Shown one piece after another: positions 17,651-17,949 of a stretch of DNA of 53,099 nucleotides. Source of the DNA: Bacteroidota bacterium (GTDB lineage: Bacteria > Bacteroidota > Bacteroidia > Chitinophagales > Saprospiraceae); NCBI GenBank assembly GCA_017858735.1, contig JAFMBH010000016.1, positions 1-53,099 on the forward strand, written 5' to 3'. Position 1 is the first letter of the stretch. Each line of letters begins with the position of its first letter. The notes beneath the pieces were generated by a model, which was not told the DNA's origin, did no database searches, and worked only from the letters and a program-made list of their open reading frames with translations. The position numbers were made by a program, and so were the translations under genes.

Positions 17651-17758
17651 TACAGAAGAGGGGAGAGATCGGGCTCACAGAACCTCTGGCAACCATGAAT
17701 GAATATCATGCAACGGTGCCAAATCCCGCCAATTTATTTTGGAACTATAAAATCTGTG
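17651..17758 (+). promoter_or_regulatory. SAM-I (S-box) type riboswitch
   Basis: P1 closes with TACAGA (17651-17656) and TCTGTG (17753-17758). AGAGG pairs with CCTCT to form P2, GGCAACC follows as the conserved junction, ATGA/TCAT makes P3, and GGTGCCAAATCC is the conserved S-box segment before P4. These are the hallmark S-box blocks in the right order. SAM binding would stabilise P1, whose 3' strand ends 5 nt before the ATG of a small cysteine-rich ORF. No classical T-run terminator follows at once, so control may act on translation of that ORF or through Rho. Confidence 0.85.
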
Positions 17759-17763
17759 TGTCT

Positions 17764-17880
17764 ATGAACGCCAACTTATTGCATCTTTTATCATCCTCGG
17801 GAGTAGTTCTTCTTATCTCTATTTTCATTACAGACAATCGTTTTCATAACAGTTGTTGTTGCTGTTGTTGTTTCAACTAA
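17764..17880 (+). CDS. Putative cysteine-sensing leader peptide (38 aa, six consecutive Cys)
   Basis: ATG at 17764 lies directly after the riboswitch P1 stem. The peptide starts MNANLLHLLSSSG, has a hydrophobic core VVLLISIFI, then TDNRFHNS, and ends with six Cys codons in a row (17854-17871: five TGT, one TGC), Phe, Asn, stop. Runs of the regulatory amino acid close to the stop are the hallmark of attenuator leader peptides, and Cys is the amino acid whose supply matters for the downstream sulfhydrylase. The frame is open further upstream (17554), but that part covers the riboswitch. The hydrophobic middle could also be a membrane or exit-tunnel contact. The role is inferred from position and sequence only. 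Confidence 0.7.
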   Translation: MNANLLHLLSSSGVVLLISIFITDNRFHNSCCCCCCFN

Positions 17881-17949
17881 CAGCCATTCCTATTTCCTTT
17901 TTTTGTTGTACGGAAATTTCTGGAAGCTGTTGTAGGGCTTAAGCCCTAC
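17861..17949 (+). promoter_or_regulatory. Alternative hairpins at the end of the Cys leader ORF
   Basis: Hairpin B: GCTGTTGTTG (17861-17870, within the Cys codons) pairs with CAAC-T-AACAGC (17874-17884). Hairpin A: the same AACAGC plus TTCC (17879-17890) pairs with GGAAGCTGTT (17922-17931). A and B cannot coexist. A perfect palindrome GTAGGGCTTAAGCCCTAC follows at 17932-17949. A ribosome held on the Cys codons would block B and free A. Energies were not calculated. Confidence 0.5.

Follow-up and report, generated by a model that had tools for sequence, protein, structure and literature searches.

The window (the whole stretch of 53,099 nt analysed in this study, from a member of the Saprospiraceae) contains a SAM-I (S-box) riboswitch located 5' of the methionine genes metY and metX; unless stated otherwise, all features described below lie on its forward strand. 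The first gene predicted to be controlled is metY (17997-19295), encoding O-acetylhomoserine (thiol)-lyase (TIGR01326, 670 bits with a cut-off of 495; PF01053). It presumably forms an operon with metX (19378-20475), encoding homoserine O-acetyltransferase, which scores above the cut-off of PRK00175 (337.9 against 331) and under that of TIGR01392 (357.3 against 500). These matches confirm the initial annotation, made from the letters alone, which had placed the regulatory elements in front of metY-metX. The S-box blocks that it described proved to belong to a full-length RF00162 aptamer at 17645-17753 (71.9 bits, cut-off 44.4, model positions 1-108). Upstream of the aptamer, at 17610-17617, there is a candidate promoter element, TAATTTTG, which fits TAnnTTTG, the sequence that we take to be the Bacteroidota -7 consensus. 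Of 73 non-redundant leader loci, 56 have the same motif 5-70 nt 5' of the aptamer, and 8 have it in the next interval upstream.

Behind the aptamer lies a short leader ORF of 38 codons (MNANLLHLLSSSGVVLLISIFITDNRFHNSCCCCCCFN; 17764-17880), the frame of which is conserved in homologues. The ORF had been recognised correctly in the initial annotation, but its start had been placed 6 nt after P1; the ATG is situated 10 nt past the aptamer end at 17753. Near its 3' end the ORF contains six consecutive Cys codons (17854-17871), the proposed sensor codons. The positions of this run, of the segment AACAGC (17879-17884), of GGAAGCTGTT (17922-17931) and of an 18-nt palindrome (17932-17949) were all found to be correct on reading the sequence. 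The spacer between the leader ORF and metY is 116 nt long. The predicted peptide has no match in Pfam or NCBIfam.

Two neighbouring regions deserve mention. Divergent to the leader, on the reverse strand (15925-17510), are an OsmC-like gene and a gene for a second Cys/Met PLP enzyme, nearest to O-succinylhomoserine sulfhydrylase models and under their cut-offs; OsmC-like genes at other loci (L144, L187) carry an S-box and a Cys leader. Downstream (20488-22287), a 599-codon ORF fuses a diacylglycerol-kinase/YegS domain to a Beta-lactamase2 domain, which is either an unusual fusion or an assembly error.

Occurrence, frame and composition of the leader

The family Saprospiraceae was compared without selection for Cys codons. 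S-boxes were detected in 39 of 60 relatives and in 106 of 199 genomes of the family, and the genes behind 122 family S-box loci were named by their best tblastn match to genes of the window or to metH of L003. A leader was scored when an ORF of at most 75 codons, with at least three Cys and with CC in its last 16 residues, started no more than 30 nt from the aptamer. Such leaders accompany 41 of the 47 metY S-boxes (7 of the 41 are from the genus of the window, the window included), as opposed to 1 of 23 for metX, 0 of 20 for metB and 0 of 12 for metH, a distribution which argues that the leader is not a product of chance. They were absent from both OsmC loci and from both low-identity metY-like loci, and present at 5 of 16 unclassified ones. 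Profiles identified the genes at three of these five loci as phosphoadenylyl-sulfate reductase (cysH; L062), OsmC-like (L144) and peroxiredoxin (L146), and those of L116 and L130 resemble cysH by eye; 11 of the 16 unclassified genes carry no gene name. One of the 41 metY leaders, that of L105, was scored with a weak Cys cluster. Among the six family metY S-boxes scored negative, four (L057, L102, L124, L151) have no leader and two (L107, L120) have ORFs ending in CC only. Outside the family, the metY S-boxes L017, L070, L071, L088 and L097 are without such a leader. In another family of the order (L084 / L318), a poly-Cys ORF starts 146 nt past the S-box, not directly behind it.

Leaders of this kind may also exist without a riboswitch, since Met/Cys ORFs precede metY in three family genomes with no detected S-box (L291, L292, L293; a fourth locus, L290, has none). 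The four loci come from a set of 20 genomes, out of 93 of the family for which filters that lose some weak matches gave no S-box. The ORFs contain MCMCCCCMCMMSG in L293, MCCCMCMANM in L292 and MDKPVAVVCICCMP in L291, the last with CICC only. The presence of Met codons in these few cases is suggestive.

The arrangement extends well beyond the family. Public genomes were scanned with a pattern combining the S-box core with four TGY codons, and at least 120 matching stretches were found; being selected for these very elements, they reveal the spread and the frame of the leader, not its prevalence. An S-box was recognised with Rfam in 107 of the 116 stretches tested among the at least 120 listed (74/80, 17/18 and 16/18 by batch; L286-L289 were outside the tested set). 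Among the matches listed, these 107 loci bear the class labels Cytophagia (36), Sphingobacteriia (34), Saprospiria (14), Flavobacteriia (12), Chitinophagia (4) and Bacteroidia (1), with no label given for 6. With at least 107 loci in at least five classes of Bacteroidota, the arrangement is common and not a curiosity. The scan and family sets overlap, as the same contigs occur in both (e.g. L212 and L034, L205 and L159), and 30 loci from a longer list, a mixture of true leaders and chance matches, were excluded from all counts.

For the first 74 scan loci, the best match to window genes within 2.5 kb was metY in 39 cases, metX in 7 and metB in 6, with none in 22; four of the six metB matches are more than 600 nt away, and a different gene may precede them. 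One of the 22 unmatched loci, L171, starts with the same protein as the cysH locus L062. Profiles named further genes behind leaders as nitrite/sulfite-reductase-like (L206), OsmC-like (L187), amino-acid permease (L186) and TonB receptor (L216); that of L202 is RimK-like, under the cut-off, and other unmatched loci resemble named genes by eye.

Several side observations concern these downstream genes. Records of Hymenobacter and Solirubrum combine an S-box with Cys leaders starting with GTG or TTG before a permease gene (L173, L186, L194, L213, L226, L229; assigned with Pfam for L186 and by eye for the rest) or a RimK-like gene (L202, and L209 by eye). Five loci (L327, L328, L330, L332, L342), with no S-box by a simple motif check, have ORFs ending in MRMCCCC or more Cys; 47-53 nt further on, a second ORF starts with MVSSYKTF or MASSYPTF. 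The second ORF of L327, the sole one of the five tested, encodes a PhyH-type dioxygenase (Pfam), and the gene following Cys ORFs of this type is perhaps a sulfur-scavenging gene. A cobalamin riboswitch was found within about 7 kb of an S-box leader at two loci of the Mucilaginibacter type (L183, 48-251, reverse strand; L260, 1399-1602, reverse strand).

To characterise the leaders, 121 of them (47 from the family or order and 74 from the scan) were reduced by peptide similarity to 87; the 33 later scan loci enter the frame count only, not the amino-acid statistics. The 87 leaders are 26-47 codons long (median 37), start 2-23 nt from the aptamer (median 9 nt) with ATG (77), GTG (9) or TTG (1), and have Cys as the last residue in 65 cases. 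Their Cys codons are mixed (344 TGT and 193 TGC). Methionine is concentrated in the six residues before CCC (89/522, 17.0%) in comparison with the remainder of the peptides (17/2033, 0.8%), as is cysteine (45/522 against 19/2033, 0.9%). ATG triplets before CCC are in frame 89 times, versus 2 and 7 times in the other frames, and Met occurs within or near the Cys cluster in 66 of the 87 leaders. Most leaders therefore call for both sulfur amino acids at their end, where these residues are concentrated, and hardly use them before it. The leader of the window has Cys only, with no Met codon near the run.

At 106 of 107 loci, the Cys frame has a start codon (ATG, GTG or TTG) no more than 30 nt from the aptamer and no stop between it and the Cys run, against 11 and 4 loci for the other frames; for ATG alone within 20 nt, the corresponding counts are 88 of 107, 0 and 1. 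In the whole genome from which the window comes, only two sites have five successive TGY codons, namely this leader and a site reading antisense through a CAG/CAA-rich stretch. Within the genus of the window (7 species), six leader sequences of equal length differ at 13 codons, 11 of them non-synonymously, and the seventh has a 3-nt in-frame insertion. No codon varies within the Cys run, and the identity of its codons in all seven species means that there is no synonymous signal there. The N-terminal parts of the peptides differ from genus to genus. The initial annotation had named the loss of the Cys run or of the frame in homologues as an argument against its reading; both are kept in homologous leaders. 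The Cys-run leader is not a chance feature.

The P1 strand and the spacer hairpins

The 3' strand of P1, TATAAAAT (17746-17753), is A-rich and spans positions -18 to -11 relative to the leader ATG; it becomes paired on formation of P1. Across the 87 leaders, A is found at each position from -14 to -11 in 69-79% of cases, and the P1 3' strand coincides with this stretch. The motif [TA]ATAAA occurs in the strand in 43 of 47 leader S-boxes and in 7 of 9 S-boxes where a gene begins immediately after P1, compared with 19 of 87 other S-boxes. A long ORF lies 4-13 nt past the aptamer at 10 loci of the family or order, in 8 of which it is metX at 7-13 nt, and metX-adjacent S-boxes share the geometry of the leader loci without any leader. 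According to a study on F. johnsoniae (PMC6847099), A at -3, -6, -12 and -13 favours initiation, and replacement of -14 to -11 lowers reporter expression by 60-90%. Because the P1 3' strand is itself the A-rich, initiation-favouring stretch, SAM can plausibly switch leader translation directly. The geometry and the A-rich strand speak for the proposal of the initial annotation that SAM hides or exposes the leader start. P1 of the SAM-bound aptamer would hide the ribosome-recruitment stretch before that start, as judged from the sequence together with the published A-12/A-13 data. It points to a way in which SAM-I riboswitches may operate in Bacteroidota, a phylum that lacks Shine-Dalgarno sites.

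Three helices may form between the Cys codons and metY. Helix 1:2 (17861-17884) pairs Cys codons (17861-17870) with 17874-17877 and 17879-17884; helix 2:3 (17879-17931) pairs 17879-17884, 17887-17890 and 17892-17897 with 17926-17931, 17922-17925 and 17912-17917; helix 3:4 (17928-17953) pairs 17928-17938 with 17943-17953, has the palindrome as its core and is followed by no U-tract. Positions 17840-17999 were folded with the ribosome (assumed footprint -16 to +15) at varied positions, a comparison of the kind that the initial annotation had called for. In the free RNA, helix 1:2 was predicted at 0.77-0.85 and the base of the full helix 3:4 at 0.94-0.95. With a ribosome on Cys codon 1 or 3, the prediction shifted to helix 2:3 (0.54-0.96) and the base of 3:4 fell to 0.09-0.34; a ribosome at Cys codon 6 or the stop codon restored the full 3:4. 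The 7-bp core of 3:4 was present in every ribosome state, so that only its base switches.

Competing helices in the order 1:2 / 2:3 / 3:4 are predicted for the genus of the window. Among its seven species, helix 2:3 is paired in 112 of 112 alignment cells with no two-sided change, 1:2 in 98.6% and 3:4 in 96.1% (the latter two together in 96.9%); there is no two-sided compensatory change and covariation does not exceed that of shuffles, the divergence among these species being too small. The hairpin choice, in which AACAGC would pair in either of two ways, is supported within the genus; the pairing of AACAGC with the Cys codons is a feature of that genus and does not rise above chance across 53 metY leaders. 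In the Mucilaginibacter group, made up of 15 loci (14 whose records carry that label, and L233, labelled only Bacteroidetes), two-sided changes occur in two other hairpins of the spacer, with a covariation score of 0.268 against 0.167 in shuffles (0/500), for a structure predicted on the same alignment, in which the 3' ends of two rows were set by hand.

Pooled folding covered 53 of the 87 leaders, those with a recognised metY start and within length limits. Their spacers have more predicted structure than the corresponding dinucleotide shuffles (mean z -1.49, or -1.16 with the Cys run included), and pairing is concentrated 10-70 nt past the stop codon. Pairing of the Cys run with the 30 nt past the stop does not exceed that in shuffled spacers across the 53 loci (0.176 vs 0.168, P=0.65); it is above 0.3 in 13 of them and strong in the genus of the window, and was rejected as a general feature. 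For the window, a classical intrinsic terminator was likewise rejected: positions 17301-18300 contain none, and no U-tract is seen. Across loci, terminator-like sites were found in 7 of 53 spacers where 3.2 were expected, which is weak.

A proposed two-stage leader and its alternatives

The reading that we prefer, with a probability of roughly three in four, is that of a two-stage leader, in which SAM would gate translation of the leader ORF, the supply of cysteine (often also of methionine) would position a pausing ribosome, and hairpins would set the transcription of metY-metX. The initial annotation had likewise combined the two inputs, SAM acting on the leader start and Cys supply acting through the leader, and the conserved Cys run and frame support it at the level of sequence. 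At the first stage, the aptamer would directly control translation of the short ORF, SAM-bound P1 covering the A-rich stretch. When SAM is low, the leader would be translated, and the ribosome would pause at the terminal Cys codons if charged tRNA is scarce; in most relatives, pausing would occur at Cys and Met codons. With no ribosome, or one that has finished, helix 1:2 and/or the full 3:4 is computed to form in the 116-nt spacer, and pausing of the ribosome in the early part of the Cys run is computed to favour 2:3 and weaken the base of 3:4. The weakest step is the last one, where the choice of hairpin would decide the passage of RNA polymerase into metY-metX without a classical terminator. 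The structured spacer, the open metY start, the missing U-tract and the small number of terminator-like sites favour transcription attenuation with a non-classical end point, perhaps Rho-dependent, although we propose this with low confidence. As a net result, the operon would be expressed at low SAM during a shortage of cysteine (or methionine).

The same elements could act on translation, with the poly-Cys region and spacer sequestering the metY start until a ribosome pausing at the Cys codons releases it. Canestrari 2020 is said to have described such translational attenuation by a poly-Cys leader in mycobacteria, where pausing reportedly frees the downstream start. The Cys run does pair with the start region at above 0.3 in 16 of 53 loci, and with the Cys codons masked the metY start is predicted to be more open by over 0.1 at 19 of 53 loci and less open at 1. 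Masking of any partner tends to raise openness; a ribosome-at-stop mask, the one control of this kind, raised the mean less (0.62 vs 0.66). Nevertheless, pairing of the Cys run with the metY start is not above that of shuffles in the 53 loci (0.219 vs 0.179, P=0.18), and, with the spacer folded alone, pairing in the last 40 nt ahead of metY is below that of mononucleotide shuffles (0.16-0.36 vs 0.39-0.49). In the window, the best folds for all ribosome states leave this stretch unpaired. This openness argues against sequestration of the ribosome-binding site of metY, which the pooled folding does not support, and we consider this explanation unlikely.

Regulation by the S-box alone, with a translated leader in which the Cys codons have little effect or shield the spacer from Rho, appears less probable still. 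Translation of an ORF behind the switch would be enough to link SAM to the access of Rho, and six family metY S-box loci lack a full Cys leader. Control by the S-box alone would leave unaccounted for the concentration of Cys and Met codons at the 3' end of the ORF, the recurrence of such ends in otherwise unlike peptides from at least five classes, and the leaders before metY in the three genomes with no detected S-box. An activity of the peptide itself, e.g. as a small thiol or metal-binding peptide, is very improbable: runs of Cys can bind metals, but the N-terminal parts vary between genera, the window peptide matches no profile, and at S-box loci the ORF nearly always begins directly behind the aptamer (L084 being an exception). 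Finally, a functionless chance or slipping (TGY)n repeat, with which the simple repeat of TGY codons and their identity in seven species would agree, can be practically discounted, being contradicted by the frame test, the mixed use of TGT and TGC and the near-absence of leaders beside family metB, metH and metX S-boxes.

The two-stage leader favoured here has parts in common with several known systems. Attenuators of the trp/his type regulate transcription by means of a ribosome on sensor codons and competing helices. The leader resembles them in having codons for the amino acid of the pathway near the stop of a short ORF, a conserved frame and, in the genus of the window, a predicted 1:2 / 2:3 / 3:4 order; it differs in that 3:4 has no U-tract and a core predicted never to open, and in that two metabolites would enter, not one. 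Tandem riboswitches and leaders combining a riboswitch with a T-box also place two sensors of one pathway in a single leader, but here the second sensor would be a translating ribosome, access of which is set by the first. The aptamer matches RF00162 over its full length, above the Rfam cut-off, and lies 5' of methionine genes. It differs in that no terminator platform is seen and in that P1 abuts the start of metX or, as here, of a leader ORF; the 3' strand of P1 appears to double as an A-rich ribosome-recruitment stretch.

A precedent for the second stage is provided by the leaders of Actinobacteria, which, according to Seliverstov 2005 (PMC1262725), have runs of Cys codons near the stop and no obvious terminator, Rho being suggested; Canestrari 2020 is cited in PMC13236596. 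Both kinds are short ORFs with Cys codons by the stop, in front of sulfur genes and with no obvious intrinsic terminator. In Bacteroidota, unlike in that phylum, there is a riboswitch 5' of the ORF, Met codons are mixed in in most relatives, and the stretch before the downstream gene is predicted to be open. The leader also differs from the leaderless short ORF of mycobacteria, as the S-box and candidate promoter lie upstream of the leader ATG, which would place the 5' end before it. Transcriptome papers on Flavobacterium and Bacteroides refer to leader-peptide-like attenuation in general terms (PMC9723704, PMC7366714). The initial annotation named no described Bacteroidota example of an S-box with a Cys leader, and we found none in open-licence papers (for part of the searches, those at the top of long lists). 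Each sensor is thus of a known kind, and the placing of a riboswitch to control an amino-acid-sensing leader ORF is an arrangement that we did not find described.

To conclude, the leader of the window is a real, conserved and widespread two-sensor leader, the function of which would be that outlined above. A broader reading, for which the chances seem to us evenly balanced, is that of a leader-peptide sulfur regulon extending throughout the phylum, in which P1 of SAM-I gates a leader with Met and Cys codons and a single RNA would respond to SAM, Met and Cys together in controlling metY, metX, metB, cysH, sulfite-reductase-like and transporter genes. In such a regulon, SAM-I would act only through the P1 strand, on an A-rich substitute for the Shine-Dalgarno site. 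The arrangement occurs in cultured genera, including Hymenobacter, Mucilaginibacter and Pontibacter, and it adds a large class of short ORFs, the one tested peptide of which is unmatched in Pfam and NCBIfam. It also predicts a group of sulfur genes under shared leader-peptide control, and the Met codons suggest that many of the leaders may act as combined sensors of the sulfur amino acids. The recurrence of these leaders before sulfur genes across Bacteroidota points to a probable two-input control of sulfur use.
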